From positions 1 through 26,569 of IMG/VR virus record IMGVR_UViG_3300048770_000022: a stretch of 26,569 bases of DNA. One strand, 5' to 3'. How positions within the stretch are numbered: the first letter of the stretch is position 1; the number at the start of each line of letters is the position of its first letter. The translations under genes and the position numbers were made by a program. The notes under the pieces are model-generated. The model was not told where the DNA came from and did not search any database. It worked only from the letters and a program-made list of their open reading frames with translations. Positions 9,781 to 18,575 of this stretch are shown piece by piece. This DNA comes from a virus.

Positions 9781-10184
9781 TAGAAGGACGTGCTAACAAA
9801 TTCATGAATCCGTTGCCCTGGCTGATCCACTAGCAACGCTTTTCCGTGTGCATCTAAAAGCCCTGACATTCTCTTTGGAATCCTTCGTTTGTCATTAACT
9901 TCATCTACTAGCCCACGCGGCACGTCATATTCTTGATCGGGGATAAAGTTCCACATTTGAATAGGATCTCCTGCCCATCTCATGTAAGGTCGGCTAAGGC
10001 GTTCGTTTGCGCCTCTATGGTTAATGTAGCGTACTTTCACTATTTTGCTGTCGTGTGCTTTTTGCTTTTGGCATTCGGCTTTCGTTTTAGCATCCATCTT
10101 CGCGAAATCGTCAAAAGGGACTGAGTTAGCCAACACATTAATGAGGCCATGTTTTTCACCTGTTGCGGTCTCTAGTTCTTTCAT
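9780..10184 (-). CDS. Conserved phage head-region protein of unknown function
   Basis: 134 aa, ATG at 10184 overlapping the preceding stop (TAATG). The most distinctive segment is YINHRGANERLSRPYMRWAG followed by DPIQMWNFIPDQEYDVPRGL, which reads like a small compact beta domain. The N-terminus is charged and helical (MKELETATGEKHGLINVLAN). There are no transmembrane or signal features. Between the capsid-related genes and the adaptor it may be a head-completion or decoration factor, but no family could be named from sequence. Confidence 0.5.
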   Translation of the reverse strand: MKELETATGEKHGLINVLANSVPFDDFAKMDAKTKAECQKQKAHDSKIVKVRYINHRGANERLSRPYMRWAGDPIQMWNFIPDQEYDVPRGLVDEVNDKRRIPKRMSGLLDAHGKALLVDQPGQRIHEFVSTSF

Positions 10185-10561
10185 TAATTTCCTATGCTCC
10201 CGTTAAGGTTTTGGAAAGGTAGCCATTTTGTAGTATTATCATACTGTTTGTTTTTGCTCCCCGAGTAGGTCACTGTTGCAGGCTGTTCGGTGCCGGCCGC
10301 AGGAATCACAAAGGGATCAAAAATGGTTGAATCGATATCAACCAAAAAGTTAAATCCATTTACTTCTAAGATCGTGCCCGTCATTTGGTCTAACTGCGTC
10401 ATGCCATAGCTGCTAGGCACGCTAAAATGCAGGTTTTGGCCCGATAGGTACATATTAGCCTCTTGTACAGTCACAACCATCGGATAAGACTGCGAGATAG
10501 CAGCTATATCAAGAAATTGCGGTACAAGATAGCAAGGCGGTAAATAGATGTTGTTTGCCAT
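10184..10561 (-). CDS. Small head-associated protein sharing a domain with the 350-aa protein at 11198-12250
   Basis: 125 aa. The core GQNLHFSVPSSYGMTQLDQM-TGTILEVN, followed by FLVDIDSTIFDPFVIP, aligns with GMKIHFSVPKSFSMPEIDQL-TGTITAVN and VTVNIDSTGFGTFMWP in the protein two genes upstream, so the two share a homologous beta-rich domain. The start codon overlaps the stop of the HNH gene (TAATG). If the HNH gene is a later insertion, the two related genes were once adjacent, which suggests a tandem duplication. Likely a capsid decoration or auxiliary structural protein; the function is inferred. Confidence 0.55.
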   Translation of the reverse strand: MANNIYLPPCYLVPQFLDIAAISQSYPMVVTVQEANMYLSGQNLHFSVPSSYGMTQLDQMTGTILEVNGFNFLVDIDSTIFDPFVIPAAGTEQPATVTYSGSKNKQYDNTTKWLPFQNLNGSIGN

Positions 10562-11145
10562 TATGGTTTTAAATCCATTAGCTTACCGTGTTTATGGTTA
10601 TGGCATATCCTACACAGCCATTGAACATCCAAAGGCTTCGAATAGTCTTCATGGTGTCCATGCGGTTTACACTCTTTCATACACACCTCACATTTGTCTG
10701 GTCTTGTAAGATAACCCGATCTAACAGCACATCGAGCAATCTTTCTAGCTCTATCTTTGAAGATATCACACTCTTTTCTAGATTTCCCGTATCGCTCGTT
10801 TCGTTTTAACTTATATTCTGGTTTTTTATTTCTCTCTTTTGTGTATTCCCTAACTTTAAGTCTATTTTTAGAATTCCATTCGGATTGGACTTTTCGATAT
10901 TCTATAGGGTTTTTTTCTCTTAAAATCCTACTTCTCCCTGTCTTGTCTTCTCTGTTTTTTTCATGATTCTTTAAATAGCTTTTTTTGTTAGCTAACCTAG
11001 CTCTAGATCTATCCTTATCAAGATATTCTCTTTTTCTCTTGTTATAGCAATTCTTACACTCGCCTGTTATCCCAGATTTTGTAGCATTTGTCTTGAGGAA
11101 TTCTTCCTCGCTTTTTTCGACCTTACACTTTGTGCACTTTTTCAT
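10561..11145 (-). CDS. HNH endonuclease with N-terminal zinc finger (free-standing homing type)
   Basis: 194 aa. An N-terminal CxxC-22-CxxC finger (C4, C7, C30, C33; MKKCTKCKVEKSEEEFLKT) is followed by a long basic helical region rich in Lys and Arg (residues 35-145), then a C-terminal HNH nuclease core: C152/C155, HGHHEDYSKPLDVQWLC near 162-178, and C178/C181 with HNHKH at 182-186. The metal and catalytic residues expected of the family are present. It interrupts the run of structural genes, between two genes sharing a domain, as expected of a homing-type mobile nuclease gene. The Shine-Dalgarno AAGGGG lies in the stem of a hairpin (11149-11174), and a promoter lies just upstream. The next gene starts inside its stop codon. 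Confidence 0.85.
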   Translation of the reverse strand: MKKCTKCKVEKSEEEFLKTNATKSGITGECKNCYNKRKREYLDKDRSRARLANKKSYLKNHEKNREDKTGRSRILREKNPIEYRKVQSEWNSKNRLKVREYTKERNKKPEYKLKRNERYGKSRKECDIFKDRARKIARCAVRSGYLTRPDKCEVCMKECKPHGHHEDYSKPLDVQWLCRICHNHKHGKLMDLKP

Positions 11146-11148
11146 ATA

Positions 11149-11174
11149 GATGACCCCTTGTTAAAGAGGTCATC
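11149..11174 (-). promoter_or_regulatory. Hairpin sequestering the ribosome binding site of the HNH gene
   Basis: On the minus strand GATGACC (11174-11168) pairs with GGTCATC (11155-11149), with a further CTT/AAG inner pairing after one mismatch and a 4-nt loop. The Shine-Dalgarno AAGGGG (11159-11154), 8 nt from the ATG, lies in the 3' arm. In a read-through transcript from the capsid promoter the site would be masked. Confidence 0.65.
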
Positions 11175-11201
11175 ATACACTAAAAGTCATATCCCTATCA
11201 A
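11172..11201 (-). promoter_or_regulatory. Sigma70-type promoter for the HNH gene, overlapping its hairpin
   Basis: TTGATA (11201-11196), 18-bp spacer, TATGAT (11177-11172). Transcription would start near 11165, inside the hairpin loop, so the resulting mRNA lacks the 5' arm and leaves the ribosome binding site free. The -35 box overlaps the stop codon of the upstream gene. Confidence 0.5.
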
Positions 11202-12250
11202 GACTCTAGTTTATAAGAGCACCAATTAATCGTATCCAAGGCTGATCCAGCAGGGCTATTAGCGCCGGCAGCGATTAACATGTAAGGAAGGAATATGGCT
11301 GAATGAAAGCTCTGATGTTGAAAATCATAACCCCAGGTCACTGGAGGGAGTGGCGTTGGGAAGTATGATGTTTGAGCACCAGCAGGGGCAAATGTCGCAA
11401 ATAAAGACGCAACAGGAGATAGTGTAGTAAGTGGCCACATGAAAGTACCAAATCCAGTGCTATCAATGTTTACAGTCACATTATAAGCGCCAATATTGCC
11501 CGTTGCTGCCACAGCATTAACAGCCGTGATTGTTCCAGTTAGCTGGTCAATCTCTGGCATGCTAAAGCTTTTTGGTACGCTAAAGTGTATCTTCATGCCG
11601 ACAACGTAAATAAGGCTAGGATCAACCGACGTGCTGACCACAGCTTGAGTTGCGTTGGAAATATTTGTGATATACAAATACTCAGGATCTACAGACAGAG
11701 TTTTCGAAACGCGTCTTGTAAAACCAGCTGTAGCAGCAGAAAGGCCGTTCGCCGTGATGTTAGCCAAACCAAGCAAAGTGTATCCTGATCCAGATACGCT
11801 TGAGATTTGGTAAACGCCACCTGCGATAGTTAGGTCACCTACTGTATTGTAAATACGTAAATAATCACCTTCCAGATAGGTATTGGTCTGTGTTACCACC
11901 GCTGGGTTAGCTAAAGATATCGCTGTAATGGCATTTGGCGCTTGATTTTCGACAAATGGTGCTTTTGTTACATACGTGAACCCATTGCTAACCGTAGAGG
12001 TAGAAAACTTATCAATTTGGATAACGCTAGATCCAGCTTTACGCCATCTCAGGCCGTCGTTTACAGCAGATTGACCAAGCCCGAATTTAGGACCAAACCA
12101 CTCTCCGCCTACGCAAACAGTACCTGTAAGTGCCATTTGGGTAATGTTCCAGGTACGGAAATAATCCGCTGAGCTTGGAAGATTGACCACTTGATTTATT
12201 GCAGTAGCGCCTTGAGTGAAGGAACCACCATCTAAAATAGTAAAAGGCAT
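11198..12250 (-). CDS. Head-associated structural protein (capsid decoration-like)
   Basis: 350 aa, ATG at 12250, ten bases after the capsid stop. Composition is beta-rich, low in charge and high in Thr/Ser/Ala/Val, typical of a virion surface or auxiliary head protein (MPFTILDGGSFTQGATAINQ at the start). Residues about 110-180 form a beta unit (EGDYLRIYNTVGDL). Residues about 215-270 carry the domain shared with the 125-aa protein at 10184-10561. The C-terminus (FHSAIFLPYMLIAAGANSPA, ending WCSYKLES) is more hydrophobic. The position immediately after the major capsid gene favours a decoration or head-stabilising role. No enzymatic motif is visible. Confidence 0.5.
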   Translation of the reverse strand: MPFTILDGGSFTQGATAINQVVNLPSSADYFRTWNITQMALTGTVCVGGEWFGPKFGLGQSAVNDGLRWRKAGSSVIQIDKFSTSTVSNGFTYVTKAPFVENQAPNAITAISLANPAVVTQTNTYLEGDYLRIYNTVGDLTIAGGVYQISSVSGSGYTLLGLANITANGLSAATAGFTRRVSKTLSVDPEYLYITNISNATQAVVSTSVDPSLIYVVGMKIHFSVPKSFSMPEIDQLTGTITAVNAVAATGNIGAYNVTVNIDSTGFGTFMWPLTTLSPVASLFATFAPAGAQTSYFPTPLPPVTWGYDFQHQSFHSAIFLPYMLIAAGANSPAGSALDTINWCSYKLES

Positions 12251-12260
12251 AGCTGACCTC

Positions 12261-13220
12261 CTATAGATATTGTGTAACGTTTAGGCCGCTGATCCAGTTT
12301 TGGTTTGTAATCGCACGCGCAATCGCAAACTTAGCATACAACTGGGAGTTTTGTGCCACGCTAGATACAACGTAGGGAGGACGATAGCCTAGAATTGCGC
12401 TATAGTTGTTCTGCTCGATTTTAGCTACTGCTTCCAAACCAAACATGGGAATGGTATAGATAGGAGCGCCTTTAAGCGATGCCCCTGGGATCTTTGCGCC
12501 TTTAGAGCTTACAAAGAACCGGAAGCGAGATACTTGGCAATACTCTTCAGGGCGGATATGCTCTTGCATGCCAGGGTAAAATGCCTTTAGAAGTACCCCT
12601 TGAACGTTTTGCAAGTCATTTGTCAAGTCTGTAGAAGCTAGTGCAATGAAAGCATCGCGAACGCCAGCTGTGCCATATTGATTTGTTGCGTCAATACCGG
12701 ACAACATACTGCGAGCGTCATTGCCAAGCAAGATACGTTCGATATTGTTGACGTCATTGCGAGAGATGTTTGATGGTTGATCGCCAGATAGACCGCCAAC
12801 AGCGTTGATATAAGATACGGATGAGGAGTAAAGATCGCGCATTAGCAAATCTTCTTTCTCACGAACCCACTGCCCTAGAAGTGCTGTGAATTTAGTAAGA
12901 ACTTTGTCGTTCTCGTATAGAGTAACTTGCTCGTTTACAACGACTGTTTTAGCATAGATTTCCATCTGCGCATCAATGTCTGAACGAACAACAACTTCAG
13001 GAGCTGGATCGATACCGGAACCGTCAAGTTGACCGCCATCAGTAGATAAGCGCTCATAACGTGACATGCGTGTGACTTTACCGATATGCGCTTCTGCATA
13101 GTGAAGGTCGCAACCGAAAGAGTGAATAAGATTGAACATTGGAGTCGACAATAGGTCTTCAGAGAACTGAACGGGCAGCTCTGGAGCCATATTGTTGATA
13201 TTTGTGATGCCTGTGGCCAT
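12261..13220 (-). CDS. Major capsid protein, N4-gp56 family-like
   Basis: 319 aa, ATG at 13220 with AAAGGGG upstream. The sequence carries the usual landmarks of the N4-gp56 group of HK97-fold capsid proteins: an N-terminal helical stretch (PVQFSEDLLSTPMFNLIHSF), the segment GKVTRMSRYERLSTDGGQLD, a helix-rich spine (YENDKVLTKFTALLGQWVRE), a GSGIDPAPEVVVRSDIDAQM stretch, and a late GAPIYTIPMFGLEAVAKIEQ strand region. Length is on the short side for the family. It follows the scaffold in gene order with the lysis-like cassette in between, and has its own strong promoter and a structured leader, as expected for the most abundant product. Confidence 0.8.
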   Translation of the reverse strand: MATGITNINNMAPELPVQFSEDLLSTPMFNLIHSFGCDLHYAEAHIGKVTRMSRYERLSTDGGQLDGSGIDPAPEVVVRSDIDAQMEIYAKTVVVNEQVTLYENDKVLTKFTALLGQWVREKEDLLMRDLYSSSVSYINAVGGLSGDQPSNISRNDVNNIERILLGNDARSMLSGIDATNQYGTAGVRDAFIALASTDLTNDLQNVQGVLLKAFYPGMQEHIRPEEYCQVSRFRFFVSSKGAKIPGASLKGAPIYTIPMFGLEAVAKIEQNNYSAILGYRPPYVVSSVAQNSQLYAKFAIARAITNQNWISGLNVTQYL

Positions 13221-13995: not shown

Positions 13996-14025
13996 AACAT
14001 TCCTTTTGTTATCCCCTGTGAAGAG

Positions 14026-14072
14026 ACACGGCAGGCGTAGGGTTTCGCTTTTCGGATGCCTCCTAGCCGTGT
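14026..14072 (-). promoter_or_regulatory. Structured leader before the membrane-protein cassette
   Basis: ACACGGC (14026-14032) and GCCGTGT (14066-14072) form a 7-bp stem; AGGC (14033-14036) with GCCT (14058-14061) extends it, or TAGG (14038-14041) with CCTA (14062-14065) forms an alternative inner stem. The minus-strand RNA also contains a perfect AGGAGG not followed by a start codon. The two exclusive pairings suggest a switchable or protein-bound leader. Confidence 0.45.
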
Positions 14073-14080
14073 GGATGGAC

Positions 14081-14109: not shown

Positions 14110-14279
14110 TCTTCTTTCGTTATTTGATACTCCATGAAAAGTGACATGCATTTTAGTAAAGCTCTTATGCATGTCGGTGGGTGAGCACCTCCATCACAAA
14201 GTTTATCCACTTCCTCCATTTGCTTTACCAGATCTTCTTTAGCCCGCTCGTTAGCGTATGGTTTCTTTATTTTCATCAT
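14106..14279 (-). CDS. Small conserved-looking protein downstream of scaffold
   Basis: 57 aa (MMKIKKPYANERAKEDLVKQ, then MEEVDKLCDGG). The start ATG overlaps the scaffold stop (GGATGATG) and AAAGGTGG serves as Shine-Dalgarno; either of two tandem ATGs may be used. It is charged and helical, with three Cys (DKLCDGG, PPTCIRALLKCM). Tight coupling to the scaffold gene and a promoter beginning exactly at its stop support a real gene. Function unknown. Confidence 0.6.
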   Translation of the reverse strand: MMKIKKPYANERAKEDLVKQMEEVDKLCDGGAHPPTCIRALLKCMSLFMEYQITKED

Positions 14280-14968
14280 CCACCTTTCATCGTTTTTTGC
14301 ATACGTGCCCAGTTATCTGCCCGTCTCTTATCATCTAACTTTTGCGGTGCGCTATCACCCGTGGGTGTTGCTCCAGGCACAGCCATGCTTTGAGGCTTAT
14401 TAAAATTACGCTCTGCCTTGGCTGCGTCTTTAGAGCTGTCTGTATTTGGCACGAACCTCTTTACGGCCTTGTATATGTTATTCCACTTGTCGAAGCTGTC
14501 CTCTTGCATACCAAAAGCTGCTGCCACTTCTGGATAGTGGTATTCCATATAGTCGAGATTTTCTTTCGTGCACACTTGATTAAAGTCTTTGTAGGTACTC
14601 TGCAATCGGTTTGGTACTTCTGCTTTCTCGCGTTCCATCCGTTGTTGCTGATATTCCCTTTCCCTAGCCTGTATGCGCTGCTCTATCTTATGTTCTATGC
14701 GCTGATCTTCCGTCATGTCCTCTTGCGATTGCTGTTGCTGTGGTTGCTTCTTGTCCAGCAACGCTTCCATAGCTGCCTTTAAAGCTACTGCTTCTGCTTG
14801 ACTCTTGGCGGCTGCTTTAGCGTTTTCTTCTGCAACCTTCCTCTCGTTTTCTCTGACTTCCCTAAACTTGCGCCAATTTATTTGTTCTTGAGTGTCGGCT
14901 GGTGCTTGCGCTTGAGCGGCATTTTGTGTATTATCTGGCTGTACTTTAACATCAGTTTGAGGCTGCAT
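14276..14968 (-). CDS. Scaffolding protein
   Basis: 230 aa. An Ala/Gln/Pro-rich start (DNTQNAAQAQAPADTQEQIN) leads into a long highly charged helical region (residues about 28-120, including EVRENERKVAEENAKAAAKS and QQQSQEDMTEDQRIEHKIEQ), and a basic C-terminus (KLDDKRRADNWARMQKTMKGG is near the end). Acidic-basic helical composition, lack of Cys and position between portal and capsid are the hallmarks of phage scaffolds. A Shine-Dalgarno GGAG lies five bases upstream, inside the oppositely oriented gene that begins at 14969; the two ATGs are back to back (CATATG). Confidence 0.7.
   Translation of the reverse strand: MQPQTDVKVQPDNTQNAAQAQAPADTQEQINWRKFREVRENERKVAEENAKAAAKSQAEAVALKAAMEALLDKKQPQQQQSQEDMTEDQRIEHKIEQRIQAREREYQQQRMEREKAEVPNRLQSTYKDFNQVCTKENLDYMEYHYPEVAAAFGMQEDSFDKWNNIYKAVKRFVPNTDSSKDAAKAERNFNKPQSMAVPGATPTGDSAPQKLDDKRRADNWARMQKTMKGG
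14924..14952 (+). promoter_or_regulatory. Candidate promoter for the antisense alpha-CTD-like gene
   Basis: TTGTGT (14924-14929), 17-bp spacer, TAACAT (14947-14952) on the plus strand, inside the 5' end of the scaffold gene. Start would be near 14959, giving a leader of about 10 nt with GAGG before the ATG. It is a weak match to consensus. Confidence 0.3.
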
Positions 14969-15265
14969 ATGACTCCGGAAGATGGGTTATTAATAGAGGA
15001 TCTGGAAAAAGATCCTGAGTTTAGTAAGATTGATATACAAAAAGAGCTTTCACATTACCGTGAAGTGGTCGGATATATGGGTGCAAACGCTCCAATAGGT
15101 GTGTTATGTCTTCCTAGGGTTATCGAGAACATCCTTGCTAAGAACGATATTGTTAGAGTTTATGACCTTATCAACTATAAATTGGATGGGATCAAGGGAC
15201 TCGGTGTGGAGCGGATTGACTTGATTAGGGCTCGCTGCGACGAGTTCTTTTCGATGCCGATTTAA
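14969..15265 (+). CDS. Alpha-CTD-like helix-hairpin-helix protein on the opposite strand of the head operon
   Basis: 98 aa, ATG at 14969 with GAGG six bases upstream. Residues 1-40 are acidic and helical (DLEKDPEFSKIDIQKELSHY). Residues about 42-95 resemble the C-terminal domain of the RNA polymerase alpha subunit: PIGVLCLPRVIENILAKNDI, then VRVYDLINYKLDGIKGLGVE and RIDLIRARCDEF. The GIKGLGVERIDLI hairpin (74-86) matches the DNA-binding helix-hairpin-helix of that fold, and the L-x-L-P-R...N-x-L pattern occupies the place of the family's first helix. It fills a 135-bp space that lacks a minus-strand gene, but its 3' part overlaps antisense the last 54 codons of 15104-15766. It could bind DNA near promoters or contact host polymerase. 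The family likeness is judged by eye. Confidence 0.6.
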   Translation: MTPEDGLLIEDLEKDPEFSKIDIQKELSHYREVVGYMGANAPIGVLCLPRVIENILAKNDIVRVYDLINYKLDGIKGLGVERIDLIRARCDEFFSMPI

Positions 15266-15766
15266 GTACTCGATTTCGGACGGTAGATCGCAACCGCTTT
15301 CCTTGCGAATGTAAGGCCAAAATTTTAGAGCATAGAACGCATCGCACCATCCCTTCATCTTATGCCAAGATGGATGCACAACAGTGCATTCGCTCAACTC
15401 TGCCATCGTTGCTGCATTAGGAAGGCACCAAAGCCTCTTCGTAATGACTCCAGAGACTTTGTTGTAAAGGAAAATGGTTTGCGAAGGCCTTGGAGACGGC
15501 ATGTAAAGCATGGCGAAAAACTTTCTTCGCATCACGTTGGATATCAGAGGATCTGAAGCCAGGACGTATCCAATGCAATACTCGTCCTCAGCAAAGATCG
15601 GATTATGTCTGTCTGCGCATATATAAAGCTGCTCCTCAATGTCCTTTGTCAGGGCCATTGCTATTTCCATAGATTCGTATTTAGATCGATCGCTGGAAGC
15701 GATCATTGATAGCTCTCCAGCGGTCTTTCTATTATTAACTTCGGTTTTAAAATCTATTATATTCAA
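15104..15766 (-). CDS. Conserved phage protein between portal and scaffold, function unknown
   Basis: 220 aa from a TTG at 15766 that overlaps the upstream stop (TTGA). An in-frame ATG at 15706 (MIASSDRSKYESMEIAMALT) has a strong GGAG about 8 nt upstream and may be the true start, giving 200 aa. Landmarks are RRKFFAMLYMPSPRPSQTIF, VITKRLWCLPNAATMAEL and HPSWHKMKGWCDAFYALKFW, a pattern seen in uncharacterised genes next to podovirus portals as far as I recall. No catalytic motif is visible. Its last 54 codons are overlapped antisense by the plus-strand gene at 14969-15265, an unusual arrangement for a phage structural block. Confidence 0.55.
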   Translation of the reverse strand: MNIIDFKTEVNNRKTAGELSMIASSDRSKYESMEIAMALTKDIEEQLYICADRHNPIFAEDEYCIGYVLASDPLISNVMRRKFFAMLYMPSPRPSQTIFLYNKVSGVITKRLWCLPNAATMAELSECTVVHPSWHKMKGWCDAFYALKFWPYIRKESGCDLPSEIEYLNRHRKELVAASPNQVNPLHTESLDPIQFIVDKVINSNNIVLSKDVLDNPRKT

Positions 15767-16035
15767 TGGTCTGTCTCGTTTACTTTTACGTGAGTGCAGG
15801 GGCGTATTTTGGCAAGCTTAGGGTTCATCTCATTTCCGGGGGCATTAGTGTACATGCTTTTTCTACTAAACTGCTGTTCCCAGTGTTCTCCTGGGATAGC
15901 GCGTTTGCTACCCTTTGCAGGCACTGAGTCGTTTGGCCCATGGTCATCATGATGGACTTTAGGCCCCTCTAGCTTATCTTTAGTCATAGGAGCACGACCC
16001 AATTGCGCCATGCCTGGTCCTAGTTTTTTAGCCAT
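15763..16035 (-). CDS. Small basic phage protein, function unknown
   Basis: 90 aa from ATG 16035 (MAKKLGPGMAQLGRAPMTKD), with AGAGG five bases upstream; the longer in-frame start overlapping the gene at 16043 is unlikely. The protein is His-rich (KVHHDDHGPNDS) and otherwise polar (GEHWEQQFSRKSMYTNAPGN). Its stop overlaps the TTG of the next gene. It lies in the conserved small-gene cluster between portal and scaffold. No function can be assigned. Confidence 0.55.
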   Translation of the reverse strand: MAKKLGPGMAQLGRAPMTKDKLEGPKVHHDDHGPNDSVPAKGSKRAIPGEHWEQQFSRKSMYTNAPGNEMNPKLAKIRPCTHVKVNETDH

Positions 16036-16042
16036 ATAACCT

Positions 16043-16249
16043 CTAGTGTTTAGCTTGATGCTTCTTTGCGTAGTTTGCAAGACCTGCACCTGCTCTGTCA
16101 AGATCCTCTGGATTACCAAACTCAGTGGCGTATTTCAAACCGCAACATGGGTTTGGTTGCCCGAGGTCTTTTTCGTTGTGTTCCTTGGGCATACGTGCCC
16201 CTCTCATTCCACCGCGTTCGGTCGAATCATCGTTTTTTTCCCGTGCCAT
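16043..16249 (-). CDS. Small conserved phage protein after portal, function unknown
   Basis: 68 aa (MAREKNDDSTERGGMRGARM, then PKEHNEKDLGQPNPCCGLKY and ATEFGNPEDLDRAGAGLANY). The PNPCCG pair and the GNPEDLDRAGAGLANYAKKH end give it a compact, conserved look. The gene begins three bases after the portal stop. It probably belongs to the head module as an assembly or minor virion protein, but nothing in the sequence shows an activity. Confidence 0.55.
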   Translation of the reverse strand: MAREKNDDSTERGGMRGARMPKEHNEKDLGQPNPCCGLKYATEFGNPEDLDRAGAGLANYAKKHQAKH

Positions 16250-18326: not shown

Positions 18327-18575
18327 TCACATGACACTGTGTTTGTCACGCTCTACTTTTTCGCGAGTTTTTGCATTGTAGAAACCGTATTCAGGCATAA
18401 CATTAATTACATCACGCTTTCTTTTTGCTATTACACCGGCTTTTCTGTGACAATCTAAACACACATTTCTTCTGCGTTTGTTTTTATAGGGAGATGGGAA
18501 AAAACTCAAGTGCTTAAGTTTGTTGCAATTCTGGCAATTGTGCATATAATCTTCAAGTCGAGGTGTTGGATTCAT
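18327..18575 (-). CDS. Small zinc-finger protein related to the HNH N-terminal finger
   Basis: 82 aa. Finger C14-x2-C17-x21-C39-x2-C42 (MHNCQNCNKLKHLSFFPSPY, then VCLDCHRKAG), the same CxxC...CxxC layout as the first domain of the HNH protein at 10561-11145 and of 24123-24338. The rest is basic (VIAKRKRDVINVMPEYGFYN). No HNH core follows. The ATG at 18575 lacks a Shine-Dalgarno; ATG 18545 (residue 11) directly before the finger is an alternative. It lies between terminase and portal with an intergenic gap upstream that holds a candidate small RNA. It could be a nucleic-acid-binding protein or a decayed or split mobile nuclease. Confidence 0.55.
   Translation of the reverse strand: MNPTPRLEDYMHNCQNCNKLKHLSFFPSPYKNKRRRNVCLDCHRKAGVIAKRKRDVINVMPEYGFYNAKTREKVERDKHSVM

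Follow-up and report, generated by a model that had tools for sequence, protein, structure and literature searches.

The C-terminal domain of the bacterial RNA polymerase (RNAP) α subunit, the α-CTD (Pfam PF03118), is represented by structures from Thermus (1doq), E. coli (3k4g and 1lb2), and B. subtilis (1z3e). Small proteins with the same predicted fold, annotated as RNA polymerase α C-terminal domain-containing, are found in Mycobacterium phage Mithril (A0A5Q2WLP1), Rhodococcus phage Finch (A0A2P1JY10), and uncultured Caudovirales (A0A6J5MNY7). We found no description of phage-encoded α-CTD proteins in the literature searched, and tblastn of the Thermus α-CTD against INPHARED gave no match at 0.01. 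Antisense overlapping gene pairs, in which the two strands of a shared DNA stretch each encode a protein, have been described for gene 10/olg1 of Pseudomonas phage Fc02 (PMC9936078) and for pop/ompA of E. coli (PMC7103648). Of the gene overlaps annotated in viruses, 6.6% are antisense, and the median for the −0 frame is 114 nt (PMC8903798). Whether antisense ORFs of prokaryotes and their viruses encode functional proteins is disputed (PMC7457138).

The locus analyzed here combines both themes. It lies in a 26,569-base virus record from IMG/VR (hereafter the window, meaning the whole stretch of DNA analyzed), which encodes a P22-type portal, a terminase large subunit, and, according to a weak match, a major head protein. 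A plus-strand gene in the head region encodes a protein that shares with the bacterial α-CTD the predicted fold over residues 42–95, the helix order, and the helix-hairpin-helix (HhH) hairpin G77xG79. It differs from the bacterial domain in that it is a free-standing protein of 98 amino acids with a different N-terminal helix and no α-NTD, and in that it has no conserved counterparts of R265, K298, and E302. The invariant P42 and L48 and the near-invariant C47 and R63 are the family's own. Compared through search matches alone, the protein is ~18–24% identical to the three annotated phage proteins. Two further entries from uncultured Caudovirales in BFVD, A0A6J5LGC0 and A0A6J5LGT9, are 40–41% identical and thus members of the family; they were deposited as uncharacterised, and the entries as returned carried no description of function, strand, or overlap.

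Like the Fc02 and pop/ompA pairs, the present pair yields two proteins from opposite strands of one DNA stretch. Unlike them, it overlaps partially and tail-to-tail in dozens of diverged lineages, both frames show selection, and the fold of one product is recognisable. Together with flanking negative controls, these properties make the locus an unusually clean natural test. As far as we could find, the combination, its universal conservation in the lineage, and the two-sided evidence for selection are new.

The antisense gene is conserved in an uncultured phage group

The gene occupies positions 14969–15265 on the plus strand, with 98 codons and a stop in an uninterrupted frame (protein P0001). 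Its ATG directly abuts the start of the putative scaffold gene on the minus strand (14276–14968) in the arrangement CAT/ATG. The label "scaffold" reflects the position between the portal and major capsid genes and is without a family match. A Shine-Dalgarno-like TGAGGC (14957–14962, +) places GAGG 6 nt before the ATG, so that the original prediction of a 98-codon gene with a ribosome-binding site, back to back with the scaffold start, was confirmed. So was its description as the sole plus-strand gene in about 21 kb, as all other gene-like ORFs between positions 1 and 20476 lie on the minus strand. Among the relatives, 15 of 26 carry a Shine-Dalgarno core 4–13 nt upstream of the start, compared with a background of 19% in control windows (P = 1.2e-5). 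Seven relatives have AGG-N(1-4)-CCT between the two divergent starts, where AGG is readable on each strand. A simple promoter/terminator scan was uninformative and revealed no promoter at the locus. A scan with position weight matrices gave a tentative, weak sigma-70-like candidate, TTGCGC-17-TATTAT (approximately 14906–14934, +), whose −10 element ends 34 nt upstream of the ATG, and a weak sigma-70-like excess within the scaffold gene (mean z of 0.60 ± 0.23 vs. −0.14 ± 0.14 in control stretches).

When the plus-gene protein alone served as the query, three contigs were found. The portal query yielded 25 contigs, and tblastn detected the gene in these wherever the contig spans the spot. A profile search with a 20-member alignment of the plus-gene family resulted in 51 loci, in all of which the gene is antisense. 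A search with an alignment of orf220, the overlapping minus-strand gene, was independent of the plus gene; 192 relatives were reported, of which 80 were kept. The plus gene was present in 78/78 newly fetched orf220 loci, always on the strand opposite orf220, and it adjoins the scaffold gene in every relative where this was checked. Gene and strand are thus conserved across the related phages, and relatives at 35–95% identity have an unbroken plus frame. Stop codons that interrupt the plus frame while the minus strand stays intact were not encountered in the relatives examined; the lone exception among these to an intact frame is one contig (L078/G006) with an apparent frameshift. We conclude that the plus gene belongs to the core genes of an uncultured group of tailed phages with a P22-type portal.

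No relatives were found among the INPHARED phages, and a scan of GTDB genome contigs with a single peptide pattern revealed none either. The larger relatives of the group measure about 38 kb; in one of 38.8 kb, an exact end repeat of 121 bases points to a probably complete genome. No integrase was found in the nine records searched, in which the positive control was detected.

Both strands of the overlap are under selection

Outside orf220, selection acts on the plus frame over 45 codons. Substitutions among relatives cluster at the third positions of plus codons, including in the portion that overlaps no other gene, and in this portion the single-base codon differences comprise 930 synonymous vs. 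491 nonsynonymous changes in the plus frame.

The remainder of the gene shares its DNA with orf220 (15104–15766, −), a conserved head-block protein. The last 54 plus-gene codons (codons 46–98 and the stop) are antisense to the 3′ end of orf220, including its own stop, and the two frames are codon-in-register (15104–15265, both strands). This feature was absent from the original prediction. The overlap measures 162 nt in the window and mostly 126–135 nt in relatives, and the codon-in-register arrangement was found in 52 of 53 loci. It is this antisense frame that most readily gives long spurious ORFs. For this reason, we randomized the synonymous codons of one gene and compared the observed with the expected conservation of the other frame.

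Across 32 diverged lineages, the minus-frame identity in the overlap was 0.424, compared with an expected value of 0.252 ± 0.005, and four minus-frame stops were observed instead of the 92 expected. The four observed stops probably terminate orf220 itself in lineages where the overlap is shorter. The control beside the overlap was flat, with 0.273 observed and 0.268 expected. The reverse test gave a plus-frame identity of 0.556 vs. 0.272 ± 0.005 in the overlap and of 0.270 vs. 0.270 in the control outside it. A second set of 51 lineages, which shares part of its contigs with the first, yielded a minus-frame identity of 0.491 vs. 0.264, one stop vs. 148, and a control of 0.236 vs. 0.229. Shared ancestry alone is insufficient as an explanation because it would have raised the controls as well. 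Since each frame is conserved beyond the constraint imposed by the other while the controls stayed flat, both strands code. The overlap therefore represents true dual coding, with selection keeping both frames.

The minus-frame residues with the most extra constraint form two motifs, approximately H-R-E-x-L-I-K-A-G-C and F-D-F-S-K. The latter sits in the C-terminal tail of orf220 (residues ~182–220), which is predicted to be disordered (AlphaFold, pLDDT ~40). A TTA or CTA codon, located at or beside the invariant Leu56 of the plus-strand protein, faces the orf220 stop in many relatives. The orf220 protein also contains an invariant PxPRPxQ; searches with it gave no PHROG match, no PDB sequence match, and no convincing fold match.

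The protein is predicted to adopt an α-CTD fold

Residues 42–95 had been proposed to resemble the α-CTD with its HhH, a view supported by the family profile, by matches in Pfam and NCBIfam, and by comparison of structures. The best PDB match of the family profile was 1doq (E = 0.0073), and the first ten sequence matches were all RNAP α or α-CTD chains. The best family member matched PF03118 with 1.8e-4; two of the 20 members match this model, and the match of G008 is below the curated cut-off. The NCBIfam model of RNAP α was matched by two members (0.0039 at best), and one member matches HHH_5 at 0.036. The window protein as a single sequence gave no Pfam match, and a PHROG search with it returned nothing useful.

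The AlphaFold model has a pLDDT of 87–93 by block over residues 41–90. Its top PDB matches in Foldseek were α-CTDs, with a probability of 1.00 and an rmsd of 1.1–1.2 Å over 55–57 residues. No Foldseek E-value is better than 0.035, which is weak but expected for a domain of 57 residues. RAD51-type HhH domains also appeared in the fold search, at weaker E-values than the α-CTDs. At the level of the fold, these data show that the plus-gene protein has a predicted α-CTD-like domain with an HhH. The domain is preceded by a conserved helix (HYR, residues 23–38).

The DNA-contact residues of the α-CTD are mostly not retained

In 77 non-redundant members, P42, L48, and L56 are invariant, and Y30, C47, E53, R63, G77, and F93 are near-invariant. 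Positions were mapped through a HMMER alignment to the E. coli α-CTD, whose DNA-contact residues we take to be R265, N268, C269, G296, K298, S299, and E302. In this assumed numbering, G296 alone of the seven is kept. The equivalent of N268 is Asn in 20 of the 77 members, those of R265, K298, and E302 are variable or replaced, and the S299 position is mostly Arg, the well-conserved R82. The GxG hairpin is conserved, and the net charge of the last 60 residues, which form the domain, is about 0. In the 98-residue protein, a short helix alone precedes the domain, without the α-NTD and the flexible linker of the canonical α subunit. The binding of UP elements, as envisaged in the original prediction, is therefore unsupported: R265, K298, and E302 are not kept, N268 occurs in about a quarter of the members, and S299 is replaced by Arg.

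One relative, G004, encodes a second, canonical α-CTD-domain protein of 139 amino acids at another place in its genome (L166: 1554–1973, +; about 11053–11472 in G004). It matches PF03118 with 3e-18, retains R265, N268, C269, K298, and S299 as judged by eye, and has a long C-terminal extension. As this canonical protein keeps most of the DNA-contact residues, their loss is specific to the antisense family, and the two proteins are distinct.

Possible function of the antisense gene

We tentatively favor a separately transcribed regulator with an α-CTD fold that acts by contact with the host transcription machinery and is expressed opposite the head genes. The free-standing protein with its added conserved N-terminal helix would be produced from its own plus-strand promoter, which may lie, most simply, inside the scaffold gene; separate transcription is needed because the gene is antisense in the head operon. 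The protein may mimic or partner the host α-CTD, with sigma region 4, an activator, or a different RNAP-associated factor as its target. It would thereby adjust host or phage transcription rather than read UP elements. Protein contact is likelier than sequence-specific DNA binding because the UP-element set is lost and the domain is near neutral, whereas Y30, C47, E53, and R63 are almost unchanged across the family. Contact with sigma or activators and a redirection of the host polymerase had been proposed from the sequence and are possible. More generally, an apparently undescribed phage family that keeps the α-CTD fold and drops the DNA-contact residues suggests an action on host transcription through protein contact. 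A search for a phage-encoded single-subunit RNAP gave no match, and its control gave none either.

The plus-strand mRNA and the late head mRNA would be complementary over the 3′ end of orf220 and the start of the scaffold gene, so that the regulator and the head genes should differ in timing and damp each other. A doubtful extension of this model is that an α-CTD mimic fixed antisense in the capsid block works as a switch, either ordered or mutually exclusive, in which the regulator would redirect or restrain the host RNAP before late transcription, late transcription would shut the regulator off, and two-strand coding would lock the layout.

Among the alternatives, an HhH protein that binds phage DNA (or RNA) in replication, recombination, or packaging and merely shares the α-CTD fold has a modest chance of being correct. 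DNA binding by HhH domains does not require an R265 equivalent, and the conserved GxG hairpin and R82, the HHH_5 match, the RAD51-type domains in the fold search, and the location in the packaging/head block all agree with such a role. However, α-CTDs outrank other HhH proteins in both the sequence and the fold searches, the domain is near neutral, and the gene, being antisense to the head genes, is off their transcript. The antisense orientation at every locus likewise speaks against an accessory protein of head assembly or of the virion with orf220, the portal, or the scaffold as its partner, since structural genes of a head block are normally co-transcribed. Such a protein, for which the shared DNA would mark a functional pair, would explain the joint conservation with orf220, which it always adjoins and overlaps, and a neutral domain with conserved surface-type residues, but the fold is that of a transcription domain, and we consider this role unlikely. 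Very improbable is a moron-like autonomous gene for host takeover, exclusion, or a defence-related task that happens to use the α-CTD fold: an autonomous transcription unit, oriented against the late operon that contains it, fits the moron layout, but morons are typically sporadic, whereas this gene occupies one fixed spot in 78/78 loci and is locked into a dual-coding overlap. Finally, the chance that the frame is a shadow ORF, or conversely that the orf220 tail is a meaningless read-in, is negligible: the codon-in-register frame easily gives such ORFs, but selection on the 45 codons outside orf220 and the codon randomization within the overlap rule out both, barring a nucleotide-level constraint (e.g., RNA structure) that mimics both frames.

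Other features of the head region

The major capsid gene, unbroken in the window (12261–13220, −), is split in several relatives at different residues (~99, 118, 136, and 183), for example in L005 (9382–11145) and L080 (13285–14509). The breaks contain sub-threshold matches to group I introns, with E-values of 6e-5 (L005) and 0.0018 (L080). The L005 insert also carries an ORF on the opposite strand (9781–10275, −) that, by eye, resembles a LAGLIDADG homing endonuclease. The Rfam int-alpA RNA (RF02996) was detected downstream of the scaffold gene within the head block (window 14013–14073, −) with 42.1 bits compared with a gathering score of 35.8, and also in L005 (8529–8589).

Between the portal gene and orf220 (window 15763–16249, −), two small ORFs of 118 amino acids (TTG start) and 68 amino acids share 77 nt. 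Matches to each of them occur in many relatives, and the start of the 118-residue ORF is uncertain. Endonuclease-like ORFs with PHROG matches to endonuclease or endonuclease VII are inserted in the structural block at 10561–11145 (−) and 18327–18575 (−).
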